From assembly GCA_027487735.1 (NCBI GenBank), contig JAIYDA010000117.1:1-64000 (forward strand): a stretch of DNA of 64,000 nucleotides. Direction: 5' to 3'. A program made the position numbers and the translations under genes. The notes under the pieces are model-generated. The model saw only the letters and a program-made list of their open reading frames with translations. It was not told where the DNA came from and made no database searches. Shown here in pieces: positions 47,798 through 64,000 of the stretch; within the stretch, counting starts at the first letter, position 1; each line of letters begins with the position of its first letter. The stretch is from Planctomycetaceae bacterium (GTDB lineage Bacteria > Planctomycetota > Phycisphaerae > Phycisphaerales > UBA1924).

Positions 47798-47821
47798 GGG
47801 AGCGGGGAGCGGGGAGCGGGG
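47798..47821. repeat. Heptamer repeat, GGGGARC type
   Basis: GGGAGCGGGGAGCGGGGAGC plus GGGG: three 7-nt steps. The same unit is found on both sides of the ffh-redoxin gap at 39.7-39.9 kb. It abuts the first, degenerate copy of the 100-bp array. Confidence 0.75.
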
Positions 47822-48002
47822 AAACCCGACGCTGCTTGTCGACCGCATCGCTTGCGACTCACTCTGGTTGCTCGGGTCGCTCTGGGGGGGCCAGCTCTCA
47901 AAAACACACTCAGCCACGCGTTTCCGCCCGTGGCTGAGCAAAGGAGGAGAGAGAGACAAGACACCAGCAGAAGTGGCAGGCTCGTGCAGCCGCCCCTTCC
48001 TG
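47821..48002. repeat. Degenerate copy of the 100-bp repeat with an insertion
   Basis: Starts with GAAACCCGAC exactly as the intact units do. It shares GAGAGAGAGAC-like and GCCGCCCCTTCCT-like segments at the expected end, but is 182 nt long. The extra part includes a perfect 10-bp hairpin at 47909-47938. Confidence 0.6.
47909..47938 (-). terminator. Strong hairpin followed by a T-run, minus strand
   Basis: CTCAGCCACG and CGTGGCTGAG form a perfect 10-bp stem with a 10-nt loop. On the minus strand it is followed by TGTGTTTTTG. This looks like an intrinsic terminator or attenuator for a transcript that would run through the 100-bp array toward the DUF4442 gene. Confidence 0.6.
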
Positions 48003-48262
48003 AAACCCGACTGAGAGGTGTTTCACTCTCGGTCGAGCCGTTTGGAGAGAGAGAGAAAAGACGCTTGAAGGACCCTTGATAGTGAGAGAGGGCCCTTCGC
48101 GAAACCCGACAGGGAGATGTTTCACTCGCCGTCGAGCCGTTTGGAGAGAGAGAGAAAAGACGCCCGAAGGACCCTTGATTGTGAGAGAGAGGGCCCTTCT
48201 GGAAACCCGACAGAGAGATGTTTCACTCGCCGTCGAGCCGTTTGGAGAGAGAGAGAAAAGAC
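48003..48262. repeat. Tandem array of about 100-bp units (two full, one partial)
   Basis: Units start at 48003, 48102 and 48202, each with GAAACCCGAC. They share a TTTCACTC segment, then GTCGAGCCGTTTGGAGAGAG and AGAAAAGAC. The first two continue with GAAGGACCC, a loop, and GGGCCCTTC; the third ends after AAAAGAC. Units are 99 and 100 nt, so any reading frame would shift between copies, which argues against a repeated protein domain. The GAAGGACCC/GGGCCCTTC stem has one A-C mismatch on the plus strand but a G-U pair on the minus strand. No gene is supported inside. Confidence 0.88.
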
Positions 48263-48439
48263 AACGACAACATGCACGCGCCTGACGAAGATGCCAGCAA
48301 AATGGTCAGAATTTCTTGCCTTGAATGAAGATTTTTGAATAGTCCAATAAAACATATCTTGATTCGGCGATAGGAGCGGTTGCTAGGACCGTCCGTCTCT
48401 GTGTTCACCCCGCTCGCGCAGCGTGTCAAAAATGCTGGC
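48263..48439. other. AT-rich upstream region of the FG-GAP gene
   Basis: About 180 bp with clearly lower GC than the surroundings (for example GAAGATTTTTGAATAG and AATAAAACATATC). It probably contains the promoter of the next gene, but no -35/-10 pair is good enough to call. Confidence 0.5.
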
Positions 48440-49816
48440 ATGAACACGCAACTCACCGCGTCGCTCTGCCTCGTTCTCGGTGCCTCGCTTGCGCAGGCAC
48501 AGGTCGCCGTCGAGTTTGTGGAGGGGTCTGGTTTCGTGACAGGCTTCGGCTCGCCGCTACCTGCGGAGTACGAAACTGTGCCGATCGGGAGGCGCGGTGC
48601 CGAAGGCGGCGGTTCGACAGGCTCGGGGTTTGTCGGAAGCAGCAGGCTGGAACTGGCCATCGTCGACGTCGTCGGGACAAGTCGCACGAATCTAATCGCA
48701 AGCGGAAACAGCTCGCACTTTTCGACGAGTGGCGGCAGCACGACAAGCACGGGCGACGGCACGATCCGCCTCGCGTCGCCAGTTCGTGTACAGCTTACCG
48801 ACCTCTCGCGTCGCGTCGTGCGATACAGCGATTCATCCAGTGTGACCGAGCCAATCGGTGGGGAAGTCACGCTCGCCCCCGCTGAGTCGGCGGGTCGACT
48901 GATCGGCAGCCTCGCAAATGGCATTCTCTTCCCGGGCGATTATGTCCTTTCCGCGCAGGTGACGGCGAATGGGACAAACGTCGGCTTCCCAAACACTCGT
49001 TCGAGCACGCTCTCGTGGACGCTCGCGATGAGCCCCCTCACGCCCCGCCTGCTCGCAAGCACCGATGCCACGAGCGACGGCAGCGACGACATCTTCTTCC
49101 ATCACACGCTCACGGGCGTCTGCGTCGCGTGGACACGCACTGTGACCAATCAAACGACCTTCTCCATCCTCGGTGGCGCGGCGCCCAACTGGGAGATTCG
49201 CGGCACGGGCGACCTCTCGCTCGATGGCGTTGCGGACATCGTGTGGCAGAACGTCGACTCGGGCGAGGTGGGCTTGTGGATCACGCGTGCCGGGCAGTTT
49301 GCTGAGTGGCGGAGCCTCGGTGTGCCGCCCGCAGGCTTCCGCGTCGAGGCTGTGGGCGACTTCGATGGTGACTTTCAGAACGACCTCATCTTCCGCAACA
49401 CCCAGACGGGCGTGCTCGTCGTCTGGCTCATGAACGCAACATCGCTGCGCACATGGCAAGTCATCGCCGCGATCCCGACCGATTGGCAGATCGTGACGGC
49501 GGGCGACTGGACGGGCGATGGCGAGAGCGACCTGCTCTGCTACCGCGCCTCCACGGGCGACGTGGGCGTGCTGGGGATGAACGACACACAGATCATCTCG
49601 TGGAGCGGCATCGGGTTCGCCGACCCCGCGATCTTCCGCCCCTTTGGCCGGATGGACACCGACGGGAACGGCACCCAGGAACTGCTCTGGCAAGACCAGA
49701 ACACCGGGCGGTTTGCAATCTGGACGATCCAGCGCCTCGGCACCACCGCAGCGTTTGACTCATGGTCGCCCTTCTTCAACCCGCTCGTCGACTCGACGTG
49801 GCGGGCCCGCAACTAA
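48440..49816 (+). CDS. Exported FG-GAP/VCBS repeat protein
   Basis: 458 aa from ATG 48440. Signal peptide residues 1-20, ending SLAQAQ. Residues ~20-205 are a Gly/Ser-rich beta domain. The C-terminal half has five repeats of ~47 residues with Ca-binding-like loops (DATSDGSDDIFFHH, GDLSLDGVADIVWQN, GDFDGDFQNDLIFRN, GDWTGDGESDLLCYR, MDTDGNGTQELLWQD), each followed by a W/V-rich strand. This is the FG-GAP/VCBS beta-propeller type, found in secreted planctomycete proteins and usually involved in binding. No enzyme motif is seen. The 100-bp array lies just upstream. Confidence 0.82.
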   Translation: MNTQLTASLCLVLGASLAQAQVAVEFVEGSGFVTGFGSPLPAEYETVPIGRRGAEGGGSTGSGFVGSSRLELAIVDVVGTSRTNLIASGNSSHFSTSGGSTTSTGDGTIRLASPVRVQLTDLSRRVVRYSDSSSVTEPIGGEVTLAPAESAGRLIGSLANGILFPGDYVLSAQVTANGTNVGFPNTRSSTLSWTLAMSPLTPRLLASTDATSDGSDDIFFHHTLTGVCVAWTRTVTNQTTFSILGGAAPNWEIRGTGDLSLDGVADIVWQNVDSGEVGLWITRAGQFAEWRSLGVPPAGFRVEAVGDFDGDFQNDLIFRNTQTGVLVVWLMNATSLRTWQVIAAIPTDWQIVTAGDWTGDGESDLLCYRASTGDVGVLGMNDTQIISWSGIGFADPAIFRPFGRMDTDGNGTQELLWQDQNTGRFAIWTIQRLGTTAAFDSWSPFFNPLVDSTWRARN

Positions 49817-61835: not shown

Positions 61836-64000
61836 TTACTGGTCGGCTTCGTAATCAAAGGAGACGGAGAGAACGCCAGTACGGGCGCTGTTTGGGTCTT
61901 CTGCCGAACTAGCGTTGCGAGCGATCGTCAGTACGATCACGTCACCTGGTGCCCAAGCCGTATTTGCACCCTCGCCGGTCGCCCAGTTGTCGCCAACTTC
62001 TGGGATAACTTGCGTCGCCACCTGAACGTTGCTCGGGTCGGCCGACTCCGCCGCATTCACCTCAGACACACCCACTCCGCTGCGCAGGTTGTAGCGGAAG
62101 CGCGTCGCGCCGATCGCAGTGAACTCGGTGTCCTTGGTGAAGCTGATATCCATATTCACCTTGCGGCTGCCGTTCGCCTGGGTCGAGTCGGTCGCCCACT
62201 TCAACGTCAGCCGCGGGGTCACAAGGCTCGGAATCGCAGCCAAGTCGCCCGAGGAAGGCCCGACGTAGTCCGCCGGAACCACAAAGCTCACTGTCATGTA
62301 CCCGTTGCTGTTTGCGCTGCCGAATGACGTCAAGCGCATTGTGCGATTGGCGGCCGTTGTTCCGTTGCCAAAGTCAAACGTACTGGTGCTGCTCGGGGAG
62401 AACATATTGCCGCTGAGCGACATGCGCCGCGTCCGGTTCGCAATCTTCGCCGCCGTCACCTGGCTGTCGCCAATGTCGGCCGTCGCGATGCTGCCGTTCG
62501 CGATCTTGCTGCTGTCCACCGCGTCGCCCGCGAGCATCGCGTTGGTCACGCCGCCAGCGTTGATGCTCACCTGGTTGCCACCAAGCGAGATGCCTGCACC
62601 CGCCGTGTAGGTCGGGCCCACGGCATCGCCATCTGCGATGTCCGCCGGAATGCCCGTGATGTTGGCCCACAGTGCCGCAACGTCATCATCGACGCCATCG
62701 GCAAATCCGCTCGGCACGCCCGTGAGACCCGACCACAGCGTGGTCCCAGCAGGACCAGCCGGGCCCTGCGGGCCTTGTGCGCCCGGCGCACCATCGCTAC
62801 CAGCCGGGCCCTGCGGACCAGGCAGACCCTGCGGGCCTTGTGCGCCCGTTGCGCCATCGCTACCAGCCGGGCCAGCGGGACCCGTCGCGCCAGCAGCACC
62901 AGCCGGGCCCTGAGCACCAGGCAGACCCTGCGGGCCTTGTGCGCCCGTTGCGCCATCGTTACCAGTCGGCCCAGCGGGGCCCGTCGCGCCAGCAGGACCA
63001 GCCGGTCCCACAGGCCCCTGCGGCCCAGCCGGACCCGTCGGCCCGCTGCCAGGCAGCAAGAAGGTGCTCGCGGGCATGCTCTGCCCAGGCAGCGTGTAGG
63101 TCAGCTGCGAATAGGCAAACGTGCCCGAGCCATTGCTCGACACGACGTTGCCCGCGACCACGGTGTTGAAGCCCGTGTCGGCAACCAAGATGCCACCCGA
63201 GGTGTTGTCGATGACGCCCACCTGGTTGCCCGAGCGAATCTCGCTGTTGGCAACGCTGAAGCTGCTGGAGTCATTGGCCACGATCTGCCCGAAGACGCTT
63301 GCGGTGTTCAGCCACGTCGTGCCCGTGCCGCTGAGGGCTATGGCGGGCGTAGCTGGCAAGGTGGGCCAGAAGGTGCTGTTGCTTGCCGACAGCACGCCAG
63401 CGCTGATCGTCACGGGCGTGCCCGTGCCGCCGCCGACGGTGCGGAAGTTGATGTTGTCCGCGAACACGCGGCTGCCCGAGTCGCCGTTGCTCATCGCCAG
63501 CGCGCTGCTGCTGCCGCCCGCGTACGCGACGCTGTCGGCAAAGTAGAGCTGCTGGAACGACGAGCCGCCGAACGTGATCGCGTCGCCCGAGGCGGGGGCG
63601 ATGTCGATGGCTTGCATCGACACGACGCCGCCCGAGTTGAACGTCACGTTGCCCGTGATCTGCGTGCTGAAGCTCTTGCCAGCAACGCCACCCTGCAGGT
63701 GGATGCCGCCCACAAGGTTCACGCTCTCGGTGTAGTTGCCCGGACGGACGAGGATGGTGACCTGGTTGCTGCTGCCAAAGCCATCGCTCACGGCTGCGTT
63801 GATCGCAGACTGAATGCTGGTGTGCGTGCCCGCACCGCTGCCATCGACGATGTATCGAGCGGCGTTGAGACCGTTGGTCCCGTTCGTGCCGTTGCTACCT
63901 GCGGGGCCTGCGGGGCCTTGCGGGCCTGCAGGACCAGCTGCGCCGACAGCACCGTCAAGACCGTTGGCACCTGCGGGACCAGCCGGGCCTTGCGGGCCTG
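61836..64000 (-). CDS. Collagen-like surface protein, 5' end outside window
   Basis: The frame is open to the right edge; the ORF track starts it at an internal GTG (63791), but the upstream codons continue a Gly-X-Y collagen pattern ([20 protein letters not shown]). Order, N to C: collagen stretch, a beta-helix-like part ([31 protein letters not shown]), a second collagen stretch of ~100 residues, then phage-fibre-like '[12 protein letters not shown]' and [19 protein letters not shown] repeats, and a C-terminal beta domain of ~170 residues. At least 721 residues are visible. A trimeric extracellular fibre is inferred. The start, and any signal peptide, is beyond the window. Confidence 0.9.
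62745..63045 (-). repeat. Collagen-type Gly-X-Y coding repeat
   Basis: About 100 codons of uninterrupted Gly-X-Y, mostly Gly-Pro-Ala, Gly-Pro-Gln and Gly-Ala-Thr. Longer DNA duplications, such as blocks encoding [14 protein letters not shown] twice, are visible within it. A second stretch begins near 63890 and continues past the edge. Confidence 0.9.

Follow-up and report, generated by a model that had tools for sequence, protein, structure and literature searches.

The window, as we call the whole 64,000-nt stretch of DNA analysed, includes a tandem repeat array located between a gene coding for a DUF4442-like protein and a gene coding for an FG-GAP-repeat protein. Tandem Repeats Finder placed the array at nucleotides 47994-48262, with a period of 99, 2.7 copies, 91% matches and a score of 438, and a repeat search of the window found in-register copies starting at 47994, 48093, and 48194, so the contiguous ~100-bp array reported in the preliminary description is real. 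A heptamer repeat, (GGGAGCG)n, is found at 47798-47824 and at ~50 places in the same genome, often as 2-4 tandem copies; it resembles the dispersed short tandem heptamer repeats known from other bacteria. The FG-GAP-repeat protein (query window 48440-49816) has 20 matches in its own genome and almost none in the sister species, where no clear orthologue was found. A large protein encoded at 61836-63791 (minus strand) includes long collagen-like Gly-X-Y repeats, for which 63-99 bp tandem DNA repeats code.

A covariance model was trained on 25 units of relatives, the window sequence being excluded, and applied to the window as a blind test. Exactly four significant units were obtained, all of them on the minus strand and with spacings of 101, 99, and 100 nt. 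Units 1 (48200-48263; 35.2 bits, E 2.9e-7), 2 (48099-48162; 31.7 bits, E 2.1e-6), and 3 (48000-48063; 35.5 bits, E 2.3e-7) are diverged, and CCUCCU (CCTCCT in the DNA) is absent from these three of the four units. Unit 1 consists of the tract GTCTTTTCTCTCTCTCTCC followed by a hairpin, and the three units are near identical in the tract, the common altered version of which is CUCUCUCUCUCCAAAC (also given as GUCUUUUCUCUCUCUCUCCAAACGG). Unit 4 (47903-47963; 72.2 bits, E 1.8e-16) is canonical and consists of GTCTTGTCTCTCTCTCCTCCTTTG and a perfect hairpin with the loop GGGCGGAAAC. No other match to the model was found in the rest of the genome at E<=0.01. The preliminary description had recognized the repeats correctly but counted about two and a half copies where the model gives four, and the degenerate copy that it placed at 47821 has only the 10-mer GAAACCCGAC in common with the array, out of register; the true fourth unit is the one at 47903-47963.

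A DNA search with the raw 311-nt array yielded weak scattered matches in relatives, none of them convincing. The family was first revealed by BLAST with a word size of 7 and a 407-nt stretch that includes the last hairpin. A relative that belongs to the same family but to a different genus (G005, L010:1514-1672) has two copies of GTCTTGTCTCTCTCTCCTCCTATGACTCGGCTGTGAGCGGAAACGCACAGGCGAGTC with a 97-nt spacing, a core to which the three window copies and a fourth stretch at 47903-47963 can all be aligned. A search with the core gave clear matches in many genomes, and the pattern TCTCTCTCCTCCTATGACTCGG, with up to three mismatches, was found in 61 of 163 genomes of the family, while its reversed control was found in 0 of 163. 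A covariance search of 400 genomes of the order at E<=0.01 resulted in matches in 103, of which 97 belong to the GTDB family of the window (Phycisphaerales); the matches in the other six are weak, the best two having E values of 6e-7 and 1e-4. Among 392 genomes spread over the phylum the matches at E<=1e-4 were confined to the same family. The copies in related genomes that the preliminary description had proposed to look for are therefore present, in ~97 genomes. Many species of the family carry a single module, tandem arrays are also common, and arrays of up to five units were found (L128, L129, L130). Some arrays, including those of G178 and G180, are cut at contig ends, and the true copy numbers may consequently exceed the counts. 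The core had an exact match in 36 contigs of public named genomes, 33 of which are named Phycisphaerales, Phycisphaeraceae, Phycisphaerae or Planctomycetota. Two others, L169 and L189, carry cyanobacterial names (Cyanobacteria bacterium CYA N2_1 and Leptolyngbya sp. PLA1); since these contigs match contigs of the window's family, the names of the metagenome-assembled genomes are probably wrong, and the unit pair of L189 is identical to that of L156. The last of the 36, a single match in Bacillus (L204), has neither the promoter-like motif described below nor a T-run and was discarded as a chance occurrence.

Each unit is a 62-nt module consisting of GUCUUGUCUCUCUCUCCUCCUAUG, an anti-Shine-Dalgarno-like tract, and a 10-bp hairpin. 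In an alignment of 77 distinct units the stem pairs in 94.3% of the cells versus 28-42% in slid controls, eight of the ten stem pairs show double compensatory changes, and the number of cells with double changes is 75, compared to 18.4 +/- 4.3 in shuffles. This alignment was fitted to the covariance model and leans toward the structure; in an independent MAFFT alignment of 25 units, seven of the ten pairs already show double changes. The pyrimidine tract, on the 5' side of the stem, stays unpaired when single units are folded as minus-strand RNA; when the whole 372-nt RNA is folded, the tract of unit 1 is in part engaged with the 3' end. CCTCC occurs in 71 of the 77 units, a figure biased upward, since some of the units had been retrieved with a pattern that includes the tract. 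The loop, GGCGGAAAC, includes GGA in 61 of the 77 units.

The units are separated by spacers that form hairpins of their own. In the window, on the minus strand, these are located at 48166-48199 (arms GAAGGGCCC/GGGTCCTTC; fold z -3.7), 48067-48098 (z -4.8), and 47964-47999 (z -1.4), the last one with a sequence different from the others. The spacers of relatives fold as well, with unrelated sequences. All 22 spacers examined fold better than dinucleotide shuffles, with a mean z of -2.3; some of them, being from closely related genomes, are not independent. The hairpin stressed in the preliminary description, with arms GAAGGACCC and GGGCCCTTC, exists at 48067-48098 and 48166-48199, and the odd pair reported in it was likewise confirmed (plus strand, A-C; minus strand, G-U). 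These arms are those of the spacer hairpins, however, and the conserved part that covaries is the other hairpin; the pairing expected to be kept in relatives is thus kept by compensatory changes in the unit hairpin and not in the arms initially singled out. The better pairing as minus-strand RNA was borne out, with z -3.9 on the minus strand versus -2.4 on the plus strand for the unit 48003-48101 and -2.8 versus -1.1 for the unit 48102-48201, and the minus-strand fold was the better one in every array unit tested.

The array also has what appear to be a start and an end. In relatives the sequence TGGCA-N13-GTGGCA(T/C)NTT is found ahead of first or single units, its end being usually 7 nt away from the unit. 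Of 42 first or single units, 37 have this promoter-like motif with a score of 11 or more out of 13; the corresponding figures are 0 of 19 for later units and 0.27% for random stretches. In the window the motif, TGGCA-N13-CGTGCATGTT (48296-48269, minus strand), has a lower score than in relatives, 10/13, and the same position and spacing, 6-7 nt ahead of unit 1. At the other end, T-runs of at least five were found after 14 of 16 last units, after 19 of 26 single units, and after none of 19 first or middle units. Both placement rules hold in the window, where the motif occurs only ahead of unit 1 and the T-run (47904-47900; hairpin fold z -3.8), the predicted end of an intrinsic terminator, occurs only after unit 4. 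The perfect hairpin at 47909-47938 followed by TTTTT on the minus strand had already been proposed as a terminator, and the U-run is indeed placed as in relatives; what had escaped attention is that the hairpin belongs to unit 4. A Sigma-70 promoter scan and a simple terminator scan gave no match. As the motif stands only before the first unit and the U-run only after the last one, the array is most likely transcribed as a single RNA, and the sequences are most simply read as a single promoter, a single multi-module RNA, and a single terminator. A promoter of its own, a conserved structure, and a terminator with a U-run, the features generally expected of a small RNA gene with an intrinsic terminator, can all be predicted here. 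As a regulon marker the motif has few further sites, which are upstream of predicted exported proteins: TGGCA-N13-GTGGCAYNTT is found ~80-125 nt upstream of such proteins in L218, L219 (G001), and L211 (G092). The motif may therefore be the signature of a larger set of genes controlled by an alternative sigma factor or a regulator.

Tandem copies with purine/pyrimidine runs, three of which are near identical in the tract in the window, could also be the product of recent slippage duplication of an intergenic hairpin, i.e., a minisatellite without function. The compensatory changes, the fixed spacing of the promoter-like motif, the restriction of the terminator to the last unit, and the persistence of the module across many genera make this explanation highly improbable. 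The most likely interpretation is instead that the array is a minus-strand gene for a small RNA of a family without earlier description, with 1-5 linked copies of the module per gene. The repeated small RNA read from the minus strand that the preliminary description had contemplated is supported by the copies in ~97 genomes of the family, the compensated stem, and the position of the U-run.

The genes next to the RNA gene were compared in a set of 46 loci, several of which have flanks too short to judge. The recurrent upstream genes (ORFs of at least 90 amino acids) are sod and tsf: rpsB was found at 13 loci, tsf at 16, and sod at 20, always upstream and on the same strand. A Fe/Mn superoxide dismutase gene, checked with Pfam, lies 109-254 nt upstream of the RNA gene and on the same strand at 24 of 53 loci, and RNA genes without sod also occur. 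The location in the window is a different one. The neighbors there are the DUF4442-like and FG-GAP-repeat genes and the two sod homologues of the same genome are on contigs other than that of the RNA gene; the locus has therefore moved in this lineage. Orthologues of the DUF4442-like gene in relatives have no array beside them, and as a result a conserved leader of that gene was ruled out. Hairpin repeats with a location that differs between the window and relatives might be thought to represent a mobile or dispersed element of the REP type; with only four matches in the genome and 1-2 loci in each relative, often with conserved synteny, we consider such an origin extremely improbable.

Another possibility is that the array acts in cis, as a leader whose successive attenuator hairpins control the gene that comes next on the same strand. 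At 14 of the 46 loci a gene for an SSF symporter is found downstream on the same strand, at a distance of 57-290 nt in 13 of them and of 1.4 kb in one more. On the other hand, no SSF gene was found at 32 of the 46 loci (some with short downstream flanks), the genes on the upstream side vary less than those on the downstream side, the next gene in the window is the unrelated DUF4442-like gene, and the last module ends in a U-run. A leader function is therefore quite unlikely. For the separate small RNA that we favor, the ancestral location downstream of rpsB-tsf-sod suggests that it acts in oxidative stress or translation control.

We propose that the locus is transcribed as a single minus-strand non-coding RNA of ~365 nt, from ~48263 to ~47900, which would consist of four 62-nt modules and their spacer hairpins, the last module forming the intrinsic terminator. 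Each module would expose a single-stranded CU-rich tract beside a stable hairpin. The canonical tract holds UCUCCUCCU, which is complementary to Shine-Dalgarno sequences, and the modules, either on the precursor or after cutting between them, would bind several mRNAs by base pairing at their ribosome-binding sites and so prevent translation; the altered tract of three of the window modules possibly serves other targets. Taken as a whole, this reading, one minus-strand multi-module small RNA with modules pairing at ribosome-binding sites, has in our estimation a probability of roughly 0.6. A search for targets with near-full complementarity found mostly the RNA genes themselves and, in one species, two candidate ribosome-binding sites. 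These sites, GAGGAGAGAGAGACATG, at L256 and L260 (G143), have ~15 nt of perfect complementarity to the tract and are next to an ATG. The proteins encoded after them are signal-peptide-like.

Multi-module RNAs such as CsrB act as protein sponges, and since 61 of the 77 loops carry GGA (GGCGGAAAC) and the modules are repeated, we retained as a rival an RNA that titrates a CsrA/RsmA-like protein through the loop GGA, or another CU-binding protein. This explanation is unlikely: the loop GGA is missing in 16 of the 77 units, among them three of the four in the window, the tract being better kept, and many species have a single module. Against the pairing of modules with mRNAs counts the fact that the usual chaperone, Hfq, does not seem to be at hand; no match to Hfq over the cut-off was found in 41 genomes, while five control genomes were positive. 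An Hfq-dependent small RNA was for this reason rejected, and the RNA probably works without Hfq. Further points on the negative side are the small number of candidate target sites (two, in one species), the loss of CCUCCU from units 1-3 of the window, the partial pairing of the unit 1 tract in the whole-RNA fold, and the lower motif score of the window. The changed tract common to units 1-3 suggests duplication of a diverged module. A broader and more tentative idea, which we regard as possible rather than probable, is that of a modular riboregulator of Phycisphaerales independent of Hfq, in which a single transcript has several anti-Shine-Dalgarno modules with intervening hairpins kept in shape and not in sequence, and in which modules duplicate within the array and their tracts then change set by set, as in the window, to reach new mRNA targets.

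In agreement with the preliminary description, which could not match the element to a known class, Rfam 15 gave no family match: the window scores far below the gathering cut-offs, and six relatives have no match at E<=2. No earlier description of the family and no small RNA described in Phycisphaerales were found in the literature searched, the scope of which leaves out most subscription papers. Few small RNAs are catalogued in the PVC group, with eight in the table of one review (PMC9029176). With its well-defined borders, conserved neighbors, promoter motif, covariance model, and natural series of 1-5 modules, the family allows riboregulation in planctomycetes that lack detectable Hfq to be tested directly.

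Several known systems share features with the planctomycete RNA. s-SodF of Streptomyces is located directly downstream of a Fe-SOD gene on the same strand (PMC3919588), but it arises by cleavage of the sodF 3' UTR and has no promoter in its vicinity. In the planctomycete loci sod can be missing, and a conserved promoter-like motif separates sod from the RNA gene, which rules out a 3' UTR-derived RNA of that type. The alpha-R8 siblings SisA-D of Caulobacter are multi-copy small RNAs with an anti-Shine-Dalgarno core (PMC12559287); unlike the planctomycete arrays, they have dispersed loci, unrelated promoters, and Hfq-mediated pairing with a sponge RNA. NmsRA and NmsRB of Neisseria are tandem siblings with UC-rich anti-Shine-Dalgarno regions, one of them single-stranded, that repress translation (PMC5362039); both have three stem-loops and are transcribed from start sites of their own, whereas here the later modules have no promoter motif. 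Similar RNAs are also found in Alphaproteobacteria: CcsR1-4, four homologous co-transcribed small RNAs with a link to oxidative stress, which are co-transcribed with ccaF1 and bind Hfq (PMC8307010), and SmelA075 and SmelA099, in which anti-Shine-Dalgarno motifs CCUCCUCCC are repeated in hairpin loops of one RNA (PMC3927594). The tandem copies belong here to one predicted transcription unit, and the neighbor is sod. In contrast to CcsR and the other cuckoo RNAs, the motif is a single-stranded tract 5' of the stem and the loop is GGCGGAAAC, Hfq was not detected (41 genomes), and there is no Rfam match. With at least one tested or published feature differing from each, the RNA was placed in none of the CcsR/cuckoo, NmsR, alpha-R8, and s-SodF groups. 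By analogy with CcsR1-4, the rhizobial anti-Shine-Dalgarno RNAs, and NmsR, the RNA most likely pairs at ribosome-binding sites and thereby represses translation, and it most likely represents a new family working in the known manner of anti-Shine-Dalgarno small RNAs. It may function like the CcsR/cuckoo and NmsR RNAs while not being homologous to them. The family also provides an example of modules that were duplicated repeatedly and diverged in their tracts, and it could be a parallel to the oxidative-stress small RNAs of Alphaproteobacteria.
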